DNA from: a virus
Length of the DNA: 38,283 bases
Virus record (IMG/VR): IMGVR_UViG_3300032288_000572
Coordinates: 1-38,283 of that record
Strand: one strand, 5' to 3'
Shown: piece by piece, positions 14,597-34,663 of the stretch
Numbering within the stretch: the stretch's first letter is position 1
Layout: each line of letters begins with the position of its first letter
Program-made: the position numbers and the translations under genes
Notes under the pieces: model-generated
What the model was told of the DNA's origin: nothing
The model's database searches: none
Seen by the model: the letters and a program-made list of their open reading frames with translations, nothing else

Positions 14597-14821
14597 TCAT
14601 GGCATAGCCGCTTTGATCTCGTCAACCGTGGATGCTGAATCAATGGCAGTCTGCATAGCCGCATACTTGTCACGCACAGCTTGCCTTGCCGCTTCTGCCG
14701 CTGTTGCTTCAGATGGAATCGTTGCCTTGATGTCTAGTGGCGCAAACTCAGCAGATCGTGCTTCTCTGCGCTTGTCGTGAGCAATCGTCTTGGCTTTGTC
14801 AATGTTGATGGTAATGCTCAT
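14597..14821 (-). CDS. Tail-fibre accessory/chaperone-like small protein (74 aa)
   Basis: Start at 14821 (MSITINIDKAK) overlaps the endonuclease stop (ATGA). The sequence (DKAKTIAHDKRREARSAEFAPLD then AARQAVRDKYAAMQTAIDSA) is a helical pattern seen in small proteins that accompany phage tail-fibre genes and in C-terminal parts of tail-fibre assembly proteins. It probably once followed directly on the gene at 15405-15596; a homing-endonuclease gene now lies between them. Confidence 0.7.
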   Translation of the reverse strand: MSITINIDKAKTIAHDKRREARSAEFAPLDIKATIPSEATAAEAARQAVRDKYAAMQTAIDSASTVDEIKAAMP

Positions 14822-15417
14822 AATTGTCTCCATGTAGTTCCTTGGGCAATATGCCCAATATTGCTTCGAGATACAGAAAATTGACTTGCAATCTTGTTTT
14901 GACTAACTCCAGTTTTAAGTAATATTTTAATTTGCACAACTTTATCCTCATTAAGTTTTGTTGCGCGTCTGTTTCTTGCTTGCTCTGTTACCGTTGCCCA
15001 TTTGCAGTTTTCTTTTGAGTATCCCAAATCGTTGTTTATTCTTTCAATACTTAGGCCTTCAGGCTGAAAACCCATATCTTCAATAAACCCTTCAAAATTT
15101 TTCCACTTATCGCATACAGTTATTCCACGAGCGCCGTAATCCTTAAACGCATGATGAGATGGACTATGGCATCTGCGAATCATTGAATCCCATACGCGAT
15201 ATTGTTTTGATCTAGCCATGCCATGCTTTGTCCAAGAACACCCACATGAATGTGTTTTCCCAGTTGACAAGTGTGTATGTTTTACTTCTTTTTTTGTGCC
15301 GCACTTACAGACGCAAAAATACATACGCTCCCCCCTTGTAGCATGGCTAAATGATTCTCCAACAGACCATTTGCCTATTGTTTGGCCTGTTAAAGATAAC
15401 ACTTTTATTCTTGCCAT
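14818..15417 (-). CDS. HNH-like homing endonuclease with zinc ribbon and C-terminal helix-turn-helix (199 aa)
   Basis: The N-terminal part has a Cys cluster (FCVCKCG at 34-40, SCGC at 57-60) that fits a zinc ribbon. The middle carries the signature of a common phage HNH-like family: YRVWDSMIRRCHSP, YGARGITVCDKW, GFQPEGLSIERINNDLGYS, NCKWAT (73-142). The C-terminal 45 residues form a helix-turn-helix (GVSQNKIASQFSVSRSNIGHI) that could read the target site. The gene is AT-rich relative to its surroundings, consistent with transfer. The in-frame codon at 15423 is an alternative start. Confidence 0.82.
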   Translation of the reverse strand: MARIKVLSLTGQTIGKWSVGESFSHATRGERMYFCVCKCGTKKEVKHTHLSTGKTHSCGCSWTKHGMARSKQYRVWDSMIRRCHSPSHHAFKDYGARGITVCDKWKNFEGFIEDMGFQPEGLSIERINNDLGYSKENCKWATVTEQARNRRATKLNEDKVVQIKILLKTGVSQNKIASQFSVSRSNIGHIAQGTTWRQL

Positions 15418-15596
15418 GACCACGCATTTCTAAAAACTCGGTCTGTTGGAATGTCTGCCACATCCACAATCTTGTAAGGCTTGCCAGCAGGAACATCCTT
15501 TGCGGCAATTTCCTCAATGGTTAAACCGCATTCAGGTGCAGGAACAATGATGGCTACACCGCCTTCATCGTTTGGAAAAATTATTCTTTGGTTCAT
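15405..15596 (-). CDS. Tail-fibre-associated small protein (63 aa)
   Basis: Begins MNQRIIFPNDEGGVAIIVPAP and contains GLTIEEIAAKDVPAGKPYKIV, then DIPTDRVFRNAW. I know this pattern from small proteins that sit beside phage tail-fibre genes and are often paired with a DKAK-type protein like the one at 14597-14821. The 3' end overlaps the homing endonuclease start by 13 bases. Possible fibre-assembly helper; evidence is contextual. Confidence 0.7.
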   Translation of the reverse strand: MNQRIIFPNDEGGVAIIVPAPECGLTIEEIAAKDVPAGKPYKIVDVADIPTDRVFRNAWSWQE

Positions 15597-27510: not shown

Positions 27511-28983
27511 TTATGCAACTCTTGACAGGTTTCTTTTCAAGGGTTGCCCCCAACTCGATCCCGCCTTCGATCCCATCATGCCGATCACCGCATCAGACGC
27601 AAAGGTCAAGCAAAACGCATCAGCCTTGTCAGGACTGGCCAAACCACGCTTCTTGATGTCTTCTTTGCTCTCAATCTGAATCTTGCCGTTGCTTGTAAAC
27701 ATATACCTGACAGTCGCCAACTCAGCAATCAGCAACTCATCTTTAGGCAACCGACAATCCCTTTGCTCAAGCCACGCCTTGGCCTTGTACCAAAGTTCGG
27801 CCTTCAGATTCCGATAAGTACCGCCCATGGCCGGTGACTCGGCCACATTGATGCCTCTGGCCGGTAACTTCAACTCTCGCAGCCGGTCAACCACGCCAGC
27901 ACCAAGTCCAATGCTGTCCACCAGTATCTCGGTTGGCCGGTCGCTTGGCATCAATGCCTCGTACTCGGCCACCACCGCACCAGTCAACTGCATCAGGTCT
28001 AAGTTCTTCCAAGTCTTGATCGGCTCAGTCACGGCGTTGCCACGGCGTTTGCACAGTGCCGAGCGATCCGATCCAAAGCGTGCCACATCCAAGCCCCACA
28101 CCAGTGGCGCATAAGGACTCGCCTCCACATCCCGATTCATCGCCAAGTCCAGCAACTCCATCGGTATCACCGTGTCTTCGTCCGACTTCGGAAACTCACC
28201 CAAGACGCGAATACGGTAGGCGTTTGACTCCTCACCGTAACGCGCCTTCATCTCCTCGATGTACGCCTCACTCACGCGCGGCGAGTCGGCGCATGACACC
28301 TTCATCGTCACCCAGTCCCCACCAAGACGGTTGTGCGTGTCGTAGAAAAAGCCGCTTGAGCGCACCGGATTGCCCATCAGTAAGGTCACAGCGTTGTGGC
28401 CAGACATTGAGCCAGATGCCGCCTCGAACACCTTCTCAGGCACGCCACTTGCTTCATCAGCCACCAGCATCACATTGTCAGAGTGAACCCCTTGCAAGGC
28501 CTCGGGTTGCTCGGCGCGTGAAGTCCTAGCAGAGATGAACGCCTCCTCGTTGGCGTCTTTCACCTCAATGCGGTCCTGTTTCACCTCCAACTGGTCAAAC
28601 AACATCGGTGGCAGCACCTTCACCCACCGCTTAACCTCGGCAAACAAGGCATCGTAAAGTTGGCTGCTGGTGGGGGCTGTGACCACCACCTTGACAGGAA
28701 ACCTCAAAAACAGATACCAAATCATCGCCCAGCTTGCGCCAGTAGATTTACCAACACCGTGGCCGCTTCTCACGCTGATTCGCCTATTGCCTGCCGCGAT
28801 GTGATTCAAGAATTCCACTTGCCATGGGTCAGGCTCAGTGTTGAGCACCTCGCGGACAAACAGCACCGGATCATTCTTGTATCGTTTGACGAATTCGATA
28901 AAAGGGTTATTCGTCAGCAAGTCCTCAGAATTTTTTTTCGGGACGCGCTTTTTCGCAGGGGTGGGGGTAGGGGGGTGGGTCAT
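27511..28983 (-). CDS. terL: Terminase large subunit (490 aa)
   Basis: ATPase domain: Walker A RSGHGVGKST (72-81) and Walker B VMLVADEAS (171-179), with the DE pair. Nuclease domain: WGLDVARFGSD (Asp299), EILVDSIGLGAGVVDRL (Asp356) and DKADAFCLTFA (Asp452, Asp455). This is the DNA-packaging motor that cleaves concatemers. The ATG at 28983 lacks an obvious Shine-Dalgarno sequence and sits in a very C-rich coding stretch, so the start is less certain than the domains. It is downstream of the origin-like gap and terS. Confidence 0.92.
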   Translation of the reverse strand: MTHPPTPTPAKKRVPKKNSEDLLTNNPFIEFVKRYKNDPVLFVREVLNTEPDPWQVEFLNHIAAGNRRISVRSGHGVGKSTGASWAMIWYLFLRFPVKVVVTAPTSSQLYDALFAEVKRWVKVLPPMLFDQLEVKQDRIEVKDANEEAFISARTSRAEQPEALQGVHSDNVMLVADEASGVPEKVFEAASGSMSGHNAVTLLMGNPVRSSGFFYDTHNRLGGDWVTMKVSCADSPRVSEAYIEEMKARYGEESNAYRIRVLGEFPKSDEDTVIPMELLDLAMNRDVEASPYAPLVWGLDVARFGSDRSALCKRRGNAVTEPIKTWKNLDLMQLTGAVVAEYEALMPSDRPTEILVDSIGLGAGVVDRLRELKLPARGINVAESPAMGGTYRNLKAELWYKAKAWLEQRDCRLPKDELLIAELATVRYMFTSNGKIQIESKEDIKKRGLASPDKADAFCLTFASDAVIGMMGSKAGSSWGQPLKRNLSRVA

Positions 28984-28987: not shown

Positions 28988-29100
28988 ATCGGTGGGTGTT
29001 TAGGTGCGACATCAGATCACCCCCGCCAAAATCCGCGAAGGGGGGGTCGCGCGGCCAGCGGCCAGCAGGCAGTCGGTGCGGCCACTTGACAGCGAAAAAG

Positions 29101-29294
29101 TTATCCACAGTCTGATGCGTTTGCAAGTCATTGATTCATATACTTTCTTGCATGAAACTTACAAAATCGATTTAACACGATGTCCATTATGTTAAGTCAA
29201 ATGTGGATAACTGGCTCTGATTTGCTCAATCAGCAAGCAGATTTGCATTATCCACAGGGCAATGTGCTCAACCATTGCGATTTTCTGTGGATAA
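29101..29294. other. Candidate replication origin: four perfect DnaA boxes in an AT-rich gap
   Basis: The consensus TTATCCACA occurs at 29101-29109 and 29248-29256 on the plus strand and at 29202-29210 and 29286-29294 on the minus strand. All four are perfect matches. The stretch between about 29125 and 29205 is AT-rich and could be an unwinding element; it also contains an inverted repeat TTAACA (29172-29177) / TGTTAA (29190-29195). The whole gap from 28984 to 29267 has no gene. Host DnaA binding is inferred from the consensus; replication has not been shown. Confidence 0.7.
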
Positions 29295-29702
29295 CTCATC
29301 GACAACCTCGACATGGCGCAAAGCCGCCATGCGTAGGTCTTGGATGTTTATGTTGACCGATGCCGCTTTTTGTAGGCCGTAAGTTTTCTGATCCCACCTT
29401 TCGGCCAGCCATTGCCGAGTGCGGATGCGCTGGACATCGCGCTGCGCGTGGTCGATGTCCATGCTGTCGGCGATCTTGATCGTCTCACAGGCCATCAGAT
29501 CGGCGGCACGCGTGCGCGCGCGCGTAATCATAGCACCGTAGTCGTTTTCCTCAATCCATTCGTCTAGCGCACGCTTACTGATGCCCAGATCGATGCAGAT
29601 GTCGGCGATGCTTTTGCCTGCCTCAAACATCGAGAAGATCATGTCCTCTGGCAGTTTGTTGAGCATTGCGACATCGGAACGGCGCTTTGGGTTGCCTGGC
29701 AT
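29268..29702 (-). CDS. terS: Terminase small subunit, Sf6-type (144 aa)
   Basis: An N-terminal helix-turn-helix (about 25-55, MFEAGKSIADICIDLGISKRALDEWI) precedes a helical domain with ARTRAADLMACETIKIADS and VQRIRTRQWLAERWDQKTYG, the pattern of Sf6 gp1-like small terminases. It recognises the packaging site and hands DNA to TerL. Its last codons overlap a DnaA box at 29286-29294. No clear Shine-Dalgarno precedes the ATG; it is close behind a 29-codon frame with a good one. Confidence 0.82.
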   Translation of the reverse strand: MPGNPKRRSDVAMLNKLPEDMIFSMFEAGKSIADICIDLGISKRALDEWIEENDYGAMITRARTRAADLMACETIKIADSMDIDHAQRDVQRIRTRQWLAERWDQKTYGLQKAASVNINIQDLRMAALRHVEVVDELSTENRNG

Positions 29703-29706
29703 CGCT

Positions 29707-29796
29707 TTAAACCCGCTTTAAAGCCGTTTTAATGCGCTGGACAGCATCCAGTACCTTTTCTTTGATCAAAGCCGCTAAACGCTTAATTTGTTCCAT
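29707..29796 (-). CDS. Candidate 29-aa amphipathic peptide upstream of terS
   Basis: ATG 29796 follows GGGAG eight bases upstream, a better ribosome site than that of terS. The frame encodes MEQIKRLAALIKEKVLDAVQ followed by RIKTALKRV and ends at TAA 29707-29709, four bases before the terS start. The sequence is a cationic amphipathic helix (apolar every three to four residues). It could be a leader that couples translation into terS or a real peptide; evidence is the start site and composition. Confidence 0.5.
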   Translation of the reverse strand: MEQIKRLAALIKEKVLDAVQRIKTALKRV

Positions 29797-30448
29797 TTTT
29801 CAATCTCCCTGCAAATTTCGTATCGAATTTCTTTTCGGCTGGCTCGCCTTCCAAGACATGGAGATCGTCTTCCATGTCATCGAACCCTGATTCTCCACCC
29901 AATTTGAATGTTTTGACCTGTGCGGTTGGATCAAACGCCTTGACTGCAATGATTTGCTGAACCAGCGGATCGTTGAAGATGACTTCGAGTTCCTCCATTG
30001 ACCAGATGAATTTGTTGTCCAGTTCCTGCCTCTCGCGTTGAATGGCCAGTGTTTCGTTGACCGTTCTCACAATCACCATGACCTGACCTGACTGCAACTG
30101 CCATTCGATTCTGGGTATCTGATCGCTGGCTGGACTGATGCCTTGATCGTCAGCCCACTGATCCAACACCGAGTACGCCCTGATCATTCCCGCCAAACTG
30201 GAATCAAACTTTGCCCGATCCTTTGCGTCAATCGCTTGGTGCAATCTGCCATTCTGAATCCAAAATTTCTCTCTGAGTCCACTGTCAACTAAAGTAATCA
30301 GTCGATTTTCTCCCCATTTTCGATCGCTGACCTCTTTGGCGGCCTCCAACTCCACCAATCTTGACTGCACATAAATCGTCCACGAATCTGCTTGTGGACT
30401 TGGACTCACCGCCACTGGATGCTGTCTTGCGCTTTTTTTCGTTGCCAT
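29783..30448 (-). CDS. Hypothetical protein before terminase genes (221 aa)
   Basis: Start 30448 (MATKKSARQHPVAV) has AGGA six bases upstream; the frame can extend to 30496 but would enter the repeat region. The protein is helical and charged, with WTIYVQSRLVELEAAKEVSD, ENRLITLVDSGLREKFWIQNG, WQLQSGQVMVIVRTVNETLAIQRERQE and an acidic segment near the end (DDMEDDLHVLEGEP). No family recognised. Location suggests a packaging or DNA-metabolism role. It overlaps the 29-aa frame by 14 bases. Confidence 0.7.
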   Translation of the reverse strand: MATKKSARQHPVAVSPSPQADSWTIYVQSRLVELEAAKEVSDRKWGENRLITLVDSGLREKFWIQNGRLHQAIDAKDRAKFDSSLAGMIRAYSVLDQWADDQGISPASDQIPRIEWQLQSGQVMVIVRTVNETLAIQRERQELDNKFIWSMEELEVIFNDPLVQQIIAVKAFDPTAQVKTFKLGGESGFDDMEDDLHVLEGEPAEKKFDTKFAGRLKNGTN

Positions 30449-30481
30449 CTCGTTTCCTCGTTTTGTTGTCAATTGGGAACA

Positions 30482-30585
30482 CACAGGGGGTAACAAACCA
30501 CCGAGTCTTTAGACTCTCGGTTTGTTCCTGTTACCCTGTGCGGAACAAACAAGTAACATTTGTACCTTGTTTGTTACCTGTTACC
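30482..30585. promoter_or_regulatory. GGTAACA repeat cluster with nested inverted repeats
   Basis: The heptamer GGTAACA (or its complement TGTTACC) occurs at 30489-30495, 30529-30535, 30572-30578 and 30579-30585, with a variant AGTAACA at 30552-30558. Long arms CACAGGG-GG-TAACA and TGTTACCCTGTG (30482-30540) enclose an inner GAGTCT-TT-AGACTC hairpin flanked by AAACC/GGTTT. A perfect 9-bp inverted repeat GTTTGTTCC/GGAACAAAC lies at 30520-30528 and 30542-30550. The 154-bp gap separates the primase-helicase gene from the packaging genes, so an operator array, iteron-type origin or structured mRNA leader is likely. Confidence 0.7.
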
Positions 30586-30602: not shown

Positions 30603-32660
30603 TCAGAATGCCTCGCCAGAATTGCTTTTGACGGTCAACCAGACAAATCCATCGCTGATTTGGCCGTGTCCATACTTCGTCAAGTCCTTCCTGATGCGTC
30701 CCCAAGCCACCTTAAAGCTGTCTTTGTCCTCATCAGTGCAGCCCATTTTCGACCACAATTCGGCCTTCCAATGCGTCAAATCGACAACCATGCGCTGAGA
30801 ACCTTCGATTAACTTCAGGAATCCATTCTTCTTAATCGCTGATTCCAGACATTGGAGTGACAAGACCTGATTCTTGCCGTGTCCGGCATTGCTTTTGCTG
30901 TCCTTTTTCATGCCATCGAACGATCCGAGTTCGCTGGCCTGCACCGCCAAACTCGTCACTGGATCGCCAATTTGCAGTGAGCTTGGCGACTCCAGTTCAA
31001 TGCTGACCATCTCAAAGCCGATGCGCTTGTTGTCCTCGCCATCCTTTTGCTTGCTGATGGTGATGACACCTTTCATCTGTTCTTCAAATCTGAGGAGTTC
31101 GAGTTCAGTGTCCACCGCGCCGAGTAAGCTGGAATGTCCGCGCAGCCCTTTTGTCGCGTCCTTTCCACTGTGGTGCAGGATCATCAAAGCGCAGTCCTGA
31201 ACGATCTGCTGAATGCGTCCGCAGGCCGTGATGAATGCGCCCATGTCTGCTGAGTCGTTCTCGTTGCCGCCGCCAAAGGCTCTGGCTAAGGTGTCCACGA
31301 TGATCATTTTGAAGTTGATGCCGAGTTCCGAGACAAGGTTCTCGATGGCAATCATCAGCGCATTGAAGTCCTCCACGCTGGCTCTGAGGTTCAACTGATG
31401 CCTGATCACATAGATTGGCGCACCATCCTGAGTCTGGTGGTGTTGCTTACACGCCTTAATCCTTGCCCCCACACCGCCAAATCCCTCGCCACAGATGTAC
31501 AAGACCGCGCCCTTCTCTGTCACGCCGTGACCCATCCATGTCCTGCCCGTGGCTATCGCTTCGGCAATGTCTAGCGCAATGAACGACTTGAAACTCCCAG
31601 GTGGTCCATAGAGCGCCGTAAACGCACCCACAGGTATCACTCCCTCAATCAGCCACTTGACTGGCTCGTCTTGGATCGAATCCCAGTGCTCGATGGCTAT
31701 TTGCTTGGTTGGTTTTGGTGGTGGTAAATCCTTTGGCTCTGACTCGAATTCCTTGGCAATGTCTTCGGTTGGCGCTGTGACTTGCTGCACCGCACTCGCA
31801 ATCGAATTGAGCACAGGATTCAATCTTTCGGGCATCGTTAGCTGATCCACACTGGTGATGATTGATGCCGCCTTGACCAGCGCCACCAACTTGTCCCTGC
31901 TGCCGCCCTCCTCAATGAATTCATAGGCATCGTCCCCCTGCCCCTGAAGTCCGAGGTCAACTACCTTCAGGCTTTTGACGATGGGCAGGATTGCCTCTGC
32001 TGCTTTGTATGCGTACTGCCAGCCTGGTACATCGTTGTCAGGCACGATGATGACTTGTGCGCCAGCAAAGTATTCGGTGATGGCGGCTGGCCATGATCCG
32101 GCGCCAGTGTGCGCAGTGGTGGCAATCATGCCAATCGACTTGATCGCGTCTGCCGCCTTCTCGCCTTCCACCAAAAAGATGTTGCGTCCCGCTGTCTTTG
32201 CGTCCAGCAGCGCGGGTAGGTTGTAGGGGACGATGCGTGCATCGCTGAGTGAGCTTTGCTTTCTGCCGTTCTCGTCAATCTTGTAGAGCCTATAAGTCTT
32301 GCCTGTGTCGCCTACCTTAAGACGCTGCTTAACGAATACCGGCTGACGGTCTTCATCGGTGTATATCCACTCTTGCTGGAATTCCACCTTTGGGATTGGC
32401 TTGATGTTGGCCAGCGGGTCAGGCCTCTCTGTCAGTTCGGGCAACAAGTTTCTATCCTTGATGGTGTTAAAGACTTCCTCTTGGCTGCACCCACCATGAC
32501 AGTGGAACAGCGGTTTACCGTCATCGCCAATGTGGATGCTGAGACTCGGATTCTTGTCACCGTTGCCTTTGCCGTGTGACGGTACAGGGCAACTCGCCAC
32601 CCATTGACCATTTGCTTTCTTCGCGTTGCCGAGCGTCTTGGCTATTTGTTCTGCTTGCAT
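30603..32660 (-). CDS. Bifunctional primase-helicase (685 aa)
   Basis: From ATG 32660: a zinc-finger region with CPVPSH (24-29), KNPSLSIH and FHCHGGC (52-58); a Toprim domain with LVEGEKAADA (163-172) and VIIVPDNDVPG (203-213, acidic Asp208 and Asp210); then a RecA-like helicase with Walker A GPPGSFKS (352-359) and MIIVDTLAR (452-460), plus LILHHSGK further on. It would prime and unwind DNA at the phage fork, feeding host polymerase. The domain order matches phage primase-helicases of the RepA/DnaG-Toprim type. The upstream start at 32696 lies in the methyltransferase gene. Confidence 0.88.
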   Translation of the reverse strand: MQAEQIAKTLGNAKKANGQWVASCPVPSHGKGNGDKNPSLSIHIGDDGKPLFHCHGGCSQEEVFNTIKDRNLLPELTERPDPLANIKPIPKVEFQQEWIYTDEDRQPVFVKQRLKVGDTGKTYRLYKIDENGRKQSSLSDARIVPYNLPALLDAKTAGRNIFLVEGEKAADAIKSIGMIATTAHTGAGSWPAAITEYFAGAQVIIVPDNDVPGWQYAYKAAEAILPIVKSLKVVDLGLQGQGDDAYEFIEEGGSRDKLVALVKAASIITSVDQLTMPERLNPVLNSIASAVQQVTAPTEDIAKEFESEPKDLPPPKPTKQIAIEHWDSIQDEPVKWLIEGVIPVGAFTALYGPPGSFKSFIALDIAEAIATGRTWMGHGVTEKGAVLYICGEGFGGVGARIKACKQHHQTQDGAPIYVIRHQLNLRASVEDFNALMIAIENLVSELGINFKMIIVDTLARAFGGGNENDSADMGAFITACGRIQQIVQDCALMILHHSGKDATKGLRGHSSLLGAVDTELELLRFEEQMKGVITISKQKDGEDNKRIGFEMVSIELESPSSLQIGDPVTSLAVQASELGSFDGMKKDSKSNAGHGKNQVLSLQCLESAIKKNGFLKLIEGSQRMVVDLTHWKAELWSKMGCTDEDKDSFKVAWGRIRKDLTKYGHGQISDGFVWLTVKSNSGEAF

Positions 32661-33766
32661 ATTGCCTCTACTTGTTCGATGCGTTGTCCGATCCACGCCA
32701 TCACAGGCACTGCCATGCTGTTGCCCAAGGCTTTGTACCTTGGACCGTCTGGCGTTGGCTTGCCTTTAGCTTGGATGTCGGTGTAGTTGTCGGGAAAGCC
32801 TTGCAGTCTCTCGCATTCCTTTGGCGTGAGTCGGCGCACGGCCATGGATTGCACCATGACATTCTCGCCACCATTGTTTCTGCCTTGAGCAAATGCAATG
32901 TCAGACACACAAGGGTCTTGTGTGCCATGGACGATTGTGGGTTGCGCCACATTCGTACCAATGCCTGCCTTTGTCAGTGTGCTTGTGACATCTGTCTCGC
33001 TGACATATAAGCCGCCATTTGGTCTATCTGATCGCGTCCCATTGGCATCGCAGAATGTGATGTTGTATGCAATGGGTTGCGCTATAAATGTTTCACTTCC
33101 TCCACCAAGGACACCTCCACTTGCTTTAGCTGTTCCTCCGATGCTGTCTTCGCGATATTGTCCAAAGCTGCTTTCAACATAGCCGGCAACACCTTCCCTC
33201 TTTTCTCTGCTCGGCGCAGGATGCCCTGACAAGCTGTGGCGCTCAAAAAGTACCGCTGCGGCAGGTCGCCAATCTCCAAGGTATCCGACAACGAACACAC
33301 GGCGGCGGCGCTGTGCCACTCCAAAGTATTGAGCGTCAAGAATCCGGTAGGCGAACCCATACCCGAGTTCGCCCAACGCCCCGAGGAAGACTCCAAAATC
33401 TTGTCCTCCGTTAGATGACAGGACTCCAGGGACATTCTCCCAGACCAACCATCGGGGGCGATATTTGTCAGCAATGGCAAGATAGGTAAGCATGAGGTTG
33501 CCACGCGGGTCATCCAATCCTTTTCTGAGTCCTGCGACTGAGAATGATTGGCAGGGTGTTCCTCCGACAAGAAGATCGACATTTGATTCAATTGACCACT
33601 CCTTAAATTTTGTCATGTCGCCAAGGTTTGGCGTTTGTGGATAGTGGTGCGCCAGCACCTGAGATGGAAACTTTTCGATCTCCGAATACGCTACTGCCTC
33701 CCAGCCAAGGGGATGCCATGCTACTGTTGCCGCCTCAATACCACTGCAAAGTGAGAGATATTTCAT
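32642..33766 (-). CDS. C5-cytosine DNA methyltransferase (374 aa)
   Basis: Motif I LSLCSGIEAAT (4-14); catalytic motif IV GGTPCQSFS (68-76, Cys72); motif VI WENVPG (109-114); motif VIII QRRRRVF (152-158); motifs IX-X RRLTPKECERLQGFPDNY and YKALGNSMAVPV near the end. The variable region between about 170 and 310 sets the target. No restriction enzyme gene is next to it, so it is an orphan that probably protects phage DNA from host restriction. Start ATG 33766 has no clear Shine-Dalgarno and follows a strong terminator by 18 bases. Confidence 0.92.
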   Translation of the reverse strand: MKYLSLCSGIEAATVAWHPLGWEAVAYSEIEKFPSQVLAHHYPQTPNLGDMTKFKEWSIESNVDLLVGGTPCQSFSVAGLRKGLDDPRGNLMLTYLAIADKYRPRWLVWENVPGVLSSNGGQDFGVFLGALGELGYGFAYRILDAQYFGVAQRRRRVFVVGYLGDWRPAAAVLFERHSLSGHPAPSREKREGVAGYVESSFGQYREDSIGGTAKASGGVLGGGSETFIAQPIAYNITFCDANGTRSDRPNGGLYVSETDVTSTLTKAGIGTNVAQPTIVHGTQDPCVSDIAFAQGRNNGGENVMVQSMAVRRLTPKECERLQGFPDNYTDIQAKGKPTPDGPRYKALGNSMAVPVMAWIGQRIEQVEAICKQNK

Positions 33767-34036: not shown

Positions 34037-34048
34037 TTTCATTTCTCC

Positions 34049-34630
34049 TTAGAACATTTCATCGTCAGCCACTGCTGCGGCCATCGCTGACTTCTGCGGT
34101 GCTGGCGGTGCAACTGGTGCAGGCGCATTGAATGGCGCTGAATGGTCAGCACCTTCCGAGTCCATGCCAGCGGGACGATCAATCCATGACACGATATTGA
34201 ACGCGGGAATGCGTGTTGTGCCTTTGCCAATCTTCTCCAGCTTGCTGCCGGTGTACTCCAGCACAGGCAACTTACCAGCATTGGCGGCTTGCTGTGCCGC
34301 GCACGCTGTGTAGAGTTGTTCGAGTCCCATGTTCGGACCCACGCCATTCGATGACCACTCAACAAGTCCGATTTCCTTGTTGTAAAACTTGATGATGAAT
34401 CCGCGTTTGTGATCGGGCGATGGTTGAGGTCCTTTCTTACCAAGTGCGGCATCGGGTTGCCAATCGCGCAGTCCAACACCAAGTGCGAGCCATCCTGTTT
34501 GCACATCATTGATGTCGAATACAACTTTCTTGAGTTGGATTTCTTCACCGAGATTGTTTGTCCAAGCATTTGCTTGTGGAGAAAAGCGGATGTAGTTTCC
34601 AGAGCCGCCAGCAGAAGAGAGATTAAGCAT
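34049..34630 (-). CDS. Single-stranded-DNA-binding-like protein (193 aa)
   Basis: Start ATG 34630 (MLNLSSAGGSGNYIRF); a TTG 18 bases upstream is less likely. An OB-fold-like core (KKVVFDINDVQTGWLALG ... GFIIKFYNKEIGLVEWSS) precedes a proline/alanine linker and the acidic tail VADDEMF, resembling the SSB C-terminal tip that recruits partners. The neighbouring exonuclease and primase-helicase genes fit a replication/recombination role. OB-fold assignment is inferred. Confidence 0.72.
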   Translation of the reverse strand: MLNLSSAGGSGNYIRFSPQANAWTNNLGEEIQLKKVVFDINDVQTGWLALGVGLRDWQPDAALGKKGPQPSPDHKRGFIIKFYNKEIGLVEWSSNGVGPNMGLEQLYTACAAQQAANAGKLPVLEYTGSKLEKIGKGTTRIPAFNIVSWIDRPAGMDSEGADHSAPFNAPAPVAPPAPQKSAMAAAVADDEMF

Positions 34631-34663
34631 TTTGCGTTTCGCTTTCAAAGTTTCGGGGTTGCA

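Follow-up and report, generated by a model that had tools for sequence, protein, structure and literature searches.

The gap of 284 bp between the terminase genes terS and terL probably holds a portable cis-element of ~190 bp in which, to judge from its sequence and its relatives, a DnaA/IHF replication origin would be joined to a phage-type Xer dimer-resolution site, both of them served by proteins of the host, presumably a Comamonadaceae bacterium. The DNA in which the gap lies (38,283 bp, the whole of the stretch analysed and hereafter the window) is a complete-looking circular contig from a freshwater phage, with ends that are identical over 34 bp. Profile matches identified terL (27511-28983, minus strand; phrog_2 and phrog_5902) as the gene for the terminase large subunit and terS (29268-29702, minus strand; PF20901 and phrog_1482) as that for a small subunit of the Sf6 type. 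A C7...G5 inverted repeat at 29018-29048, directly before terL, is conserved across family A, and an HNH endonuclease gene (14818-15423, minus strand) is set among the tail-region genes.

DnaA Boxes between the Terminase Genes

An earlier note on this DNA had drawn attention to four perfect DnaA boxes within 194 bp, two in each orientation, and on both counts it was right: the exact TTATCCACA occurs at 29101-29109 and 29248-29256 on the plus strand and at 29202-29210 and 29286-29294 on the minus strand, and nowhere else in the window. Reckoned along the terL strand from the start of the XerD arm described below, the box at 29286 lies 99 bp upstream, that at 29248, in the opposite orientation, at -61, that at 29202 at -15, and that at 29101, beyond the IHF site towards terL, at +86. 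The first of these does fall, as had been claimed, in the last codons of terS, where it spells Leu-Ser-Thr.

By means of two IMG/VR scans, 77 distinct terS-terL gaps of relatives were gathered, and the recurrence of the boxes, which the note had proposed as a check, was found in every one of them (three to five DnaA-type boxes in 77/77, mostly at identical positions, of which -24, +14, +60 and +161, counted from the end of terS, are the commonest). In 100 dinucleotide shuffles, TTATCCACA occurred on average 0.26 times per window and at most three times; with this shuffle expectation and the retention of boxes in all 77 relatives, a chance cluster was rejected. The relatives' boxes are of the type TT[A/G/T]TNCACA and mostly TTATCCACA itself, the departures being for the most part TTGTCCACA and TTATGCACA; at the place of 29248, for instance, TTATCCACA, TTGTCCACA or TTATGCACA is seen, while the box at 29101 is either retained or swapped for one a few bases away, and where an outer box is absent there is often another a few bases off (161- versus 157+ or 170+). 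The terS-internal box is exact in 75 of the 77, and its codons, TTA TCC ACA, are nearly fixed, even though elsewhere in terS they make up only 14%, 5% and 12% of the Leu, Ser and Thr codons, respectively, which argues that this box is selected as DNA. Long relatives have one to four exact boxes each, nearly all of them within the cassette, and the exact TTATCCACA was present in all seven of the host-family dnaA regions examined. The annotated phages that are nearest by TerL (Manatee Spring, 54-68%) had no boxes in their terL regions examined.

An Xer Site and an IHF Site within the Array

The earlier account of the gap was correct as to the boxes and the AT-rich stretch with a TTAACA/TGTTAA repeat (29110-29201, which is 33% G+C and holds TTTAACACGATGTCCATTATGTTAA), but it overlooked a dif-type Xer site and an IHF site. 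The AT-rich stretch ranks with the 80-bp segments of lowest stability in the genome and is a candidate unwinding region. Within it, at 29170-29197 on the plus strand, is a dif-type XerC/XerD site of the 11-6-11 layout, composed of an XerC arm, ATTTAACACGA (29170-29180), a centre, TGTCCA (29181-29186), and an XerD arm, TTATGTTAAGT (29187-29197), whose core is invariant in relatives; nowhere else in the gap is conservation as strong as in this palindrome. Rhodoferax ferrireducens has a published dif, ACTTGATACGA-TGTATA-TTATGTTAAGT (PMC2731167), with which the phage site, the best match in the window, agrees at 23 of 28 positions and in all 11 of the XerD arm, while the best of 60 shuffled genomes gave at most 20/28; the Xer site of another locus (L518) matched a host dif at 25/28. 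The pattern ACGA-N6-TTATGTTAA was found in 91 of 301 Rhodoferax-family genomes, usually once in each and mostly as ACGATGTATATTATGTTAA, whereas its reversed control produced almost no matches in the same 301, and therefore the XerC half of the phage site is of the host type and no mere mirror image of the XerD half. The phage centres recorded (TGTCCA, TGACTA, TCACTA and TGTTCA) were not seen in the host dif sites of these genomes.

The IHF consensus AATCAATGACTTG (29124-29136, minus strand) lies 59 bp from the XerD arm. It is strict in 54 of the 77 relatives and, in relaxed form at the fixed spacing, present in 74, in which the distance to the XerD arm is 59-60 bp though the intervening sequence drifts. 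Likewise, the box at 29202 keeps its 15 bp to the XerD arm in 60/77, and the alternative spacings that were encountered lie about one helical turn apart (-99/-110 for a box; 59/60 versus 69-71 for IHF). With the DnaA, Xer and IHF sites so rigidly spaced, all of the proteins may act in one complex, or DnaA may act as an Xer accessory factor only.

According to the latter alternative, which we think unlikely, the gap would be mainly an Xer recombination site with DnaA and IHF as its accessory proteins, and the origin would be elsewhere. Known accessory proteins are ArgR and PepA for cer, and ArcA and PepA for psi. The rigid spacing from the Xer arms would suit this reading, as would the use by plasmid Xer sites of accessory sequences of ~200 bp (PMC11724359), but those of cer and psi are on the XerC side, whereas here the IHF site and one DnaA box are on the XerC side and most of the boxes on the XerD side.

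The same sites could also be read as a datA- or DARS-like element, by which host DnaA would be titrated or its ATP/ADP state shifted during infection. datA depends on a pair of boxes that enclose an IHF site at a set spacing (PMC4585315), and in the cassette, too, boxes flank the IHF site on both sides; DARS2 shares with both the combination of DnaA boxes and an IHF site at set spacing. The cassette, however, is on a phage, contains an Xer site that this explanation does not account for, and tracks a replication module, and its mutual exclusivity with an O-like initiator gene (see below) is equally unaccounted for, so that we consider such a function improbable.

Resolution Versus Integration at dif

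The resemblance of the Xer arms to host dif, the want of an integrase gene (none in the 17 phage records searched) and the fact that the first three bases of the centre, TGT, are those of most host dif sites raised the question of an attachment site for XerCD integration at the host dif, in a tailed phage of the IMEX type. The IMEX phages, i.e., filamentous phages of the CTX type, the microvirus Ebor and tailless vibriophages, also have a dif-like site and no integrase gene, but the phages here are tailed with double-stranded DNA, their Xer site is joined to a DnaA/IHF array, and no integrated copies were seen in 401 family genomes or in a GTDB scan. Contigs ran intact through the site in 109/109 cases from terS and 103/104 from terL; no close TerL was found in the 401 genomes or the GTDB scan, for which the patterns were weak; the 401 were free of a DnaA-box/XerD-arm junction except at one host dif; and the phage centres never occurred in host dif. 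A genome-wide pattern scan had matches, but none with a terminase homologue. Together, the intact contigs, the lack of a close TerL in those genomes and of an integrase in the phage records, and the phage-specific centres favour multimer resolution over integration at dif, for which we see little chance.

In Rhodoferax sp. U2-2l (L361, G001:C14 ~70.97 kb), an exact DnaA box begins 13 bp from a host dif-type site that adjoins a phage-type gene, which we take to be DUF3653-like; this locus is possibly a dif-integrated element.

One Cassette with Several Terminases

To the earlier note, the oddity was the placement of an origin between terS and terL, a view that did not survive comparison, as the movement of the element is not tied to the terminase genes. 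In G405 and its relatives (group B), TerL is only ~31% identical to that of family A and the cassette is inverted beside a terS gene, and in L462 it is upstream of terS. A and B are ~80% similar, and in most pairs the likeness extends no further than -118..+80 around the XerD arm; the unit of ~190 bp is, on this comparison, portable. Scanning for nothing but the Xer palindrome added 52 loci outside family A, ~40 of them with boxes and many with an IHF site at 69-71 bp. Several other lineages share with the window its helicase (44-52%), the gene at 29783 (39-47%) and usually the exonuclease and RuvC, and have kept the cassette without a TerL match in the locus, which indicates that the cassette is linked less closely to the terminase than to the replication module.

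These findings bear on whether the gap is a region for packaging (pac or TerS binding) or for control of late transcription, the boxes being incidental or regulatory. The position beside terS in families A and B is what such a role would favour, but with the cassette inverted in group B, upstream of terS in L462 and found also with unrelated TerL, and with no excess of promoters or terminators, it appears to us very improbable; on the same inversion and displacement, a terminase-linked function was rejected, as was, on the lack of excess, a promoter or terminator. A structured RNA or attenuator was likewise rejected, since hairpin-forming box changes are uncompensated, the folding z is -1.7 and there was no Rfam match.

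Replication Genes and the Initiator-Gene Contrast

The replication protein of the phage is a RepA-like helicase-primase (AAA_25; 30603-32696, minus strand), homologues of which accompany the cassette in other lineages. The gene at 29783-30496 (minus strand) has homologues (29-98%) in the cassette-bearing contigs of several lineages but had no Pfam or PHROGs match; its predicted structure has a confident helical core (residues 21-170), for which a structure search returned no informative PDB match and only uncharacterised phage proteins. It is a candidate helicase loader or cassette-binding protein. A P1-like phage-plasmid would bring a Rep initiator of its own, partition genes and a dimer resolvase; among the scanned phage proteins, which were part of the gene set, no partition or initiator gene was recognised. 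In the recombination module, a frameshifted gene may account for the overlapping odd ORFs at 34039-34648 (minus strand), which adjoin the exonuclease gene.

The Xer palindrome also occurs without boxes, at ten distinct loci, and in eight of these a gene of a single family lies 24-36 bp away, three tested members of which matched O-like/DnaD-like replication initiators (HTH_36; phrog_391, 270, 428 and 186). The helicase-primase was found at none of the ten, whereas it accompanied 108 of 142 box-bearing sites in the stretch examined, and an O-like initiator gene accompanied none of the 142. The contrast between boxes and initiator gene has a Fisher p of ~1e-11, a value that overstates the independent evidence in that related phages occur within groups, the lineages are not independent, the evolutionary events are few and two of the three locus-gathering scans required a box or an IHF site. 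Boxes that stand in for the phage initiator would be expected to give exclusivity of this sort. It also counts against DnaA as an Xer accessory factor only, as the phages that have this Xer site but lack boxes carry an initiator gene adjoining it and an origin function is the better fit.

Proposed Mechanism

DnaA and IHF are known to open oriC and several plasmid origins (PMC4980987), and XerCD, aided by accessory proteins, acts on dif-like sites to resolve plasmid dimers (PMC11724359). What the sequences show of the cassette are its boxes, IHF consensus and Xer site, their geometry and conservation, its portability and the exclusivity with an initiator gene; binding of DnaA, IHF and XerCD, melting, initiation and resolution are inferred. 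Host DnaA would bind the three to five fixed boxes and IHF would put a bend into the stretch that separates the outer box from the Xer site, whereupon the AT-rich middle, opened by the two proteins, would melt, the phage RepA-like helicase-primase would be loaded and theta replication would start. Multimers of the phage circle would be resolved to monomers by host XerC/XerD at the dif-type site, which would have other phage copies, but not the chromosome, as its partners in recombination, because none of the chromosomal dif sites seen shares its centre (TGTCCA and variants). Resolving concatemers would, on the face of it, be at odds with headful packaging. Going further, and tentatively, as a possibility rather than an expectation, DnaA, IHF and XerC/XerD might form a single nucleoprotein complex on a mobile module of ~190 bp. 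Such a module would link initiation with the resolution of multimers, would pass between tailed phages of freshwater Betaproteobacteria that are otherwise unrelated, and would replace the phage initiator gene.

Strand Composition

The earlier note had expected a minimum of cumulative GC skew at the gap, and as stated this prediction failed, for the minimum is at 36.5 kb; cumulative skew follows gene orientation, and 36.5 kb is the point of transcription divergence. The skew was also computed in corrected form from fourfold-degenerate sites of co-oriented genes, with several measures tried. In six family-A genomes, the strongest A-to-T switch then lay within ~750 bp of the gap and in the direction of a bidirectional origin, while two group-B genomes had no A/T switch near the cassette but a C/G switch that peaked within ~225 bp of it. 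The corrected switch is suggestive of an origin only. The note's claim of a DnaA-dependent origin was strongly supported by conservation of the boxes, though not by raw skew, and is the best supported reading.

Relation to Known Origins and Xer Sites

Many tailed phages bring their own initiator. By comparison, phages that are widespread in fresh water seem to initiate replication at an oriC-like array, which is read by host DnaA and IHF and has an XerC/XerD site built in. If true, their replication would be tied to the host cell cycle, the monomeric circular genomes of integrase-less phages would be explained and the cassette would supply a small portable origin; in the exclusivity with the O-like initiator gene, there is a direct handle on the function of the boxes.

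Like the cassette, the origins of P1 (oriR), pSC101 and R6K have DnaA boxes and an IHF site beside an AT-rich stretch (PMC4980987), and pSC101 also bears, on the same plasmid, a 28-bp Xer site, psi (PMC11724359). Unlike them, the cassette phage has no recognised iterons or Rep initiator, the Xer site is inside the DnaA/IHF array at fixed spacing, and the whole is on small tailed phages beside the terminase genes. Bacterial oriC, with its strong DnaA boxes, IHF site, AT-rich element and host DnaA as presumed initiator, is similar in kind, but the three to five boxes of the cassette are widely spaced over ~190 bp and accompanied by an Xer site, and the phage has its own helicase-primase. With dif and psi the phage site shares the 11-6-11 layout, an XerD arm that is that of host dif and an XerC arm of host type; it differs in its phage-specific centre (TGTCCA/TGACTA/TCACTA) and, from the plasmid Xer sites with their ArgR or ArcA and PepA sequences, in having DnaA and IHF sites on its flanks. 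Origins of the DnaA/IHF kind are already known, as are Xer sites; their union within one small, portable tailed-phage module appears to be new. Searches of the annotated phage and plasmid collections did not turn up the cassette, and in the literature searched no tailed phage was described as combining dif and DnaA boxes. Nor was the alternation of such a module with an initiator-gene arrangement found in these papers or collections.

Outside any such cassette, related phage contigs (L188 and L230) have several DnaA-like boxes beside long AT runs. In two AT-rich phage contigs (L431 and L456), two DnaA boxes lie 11-12 bp apart and an IHF-like site is ~60 bp from a chance-like XerD arm, an arrangement that is perhaps another kind of DnaA origin.
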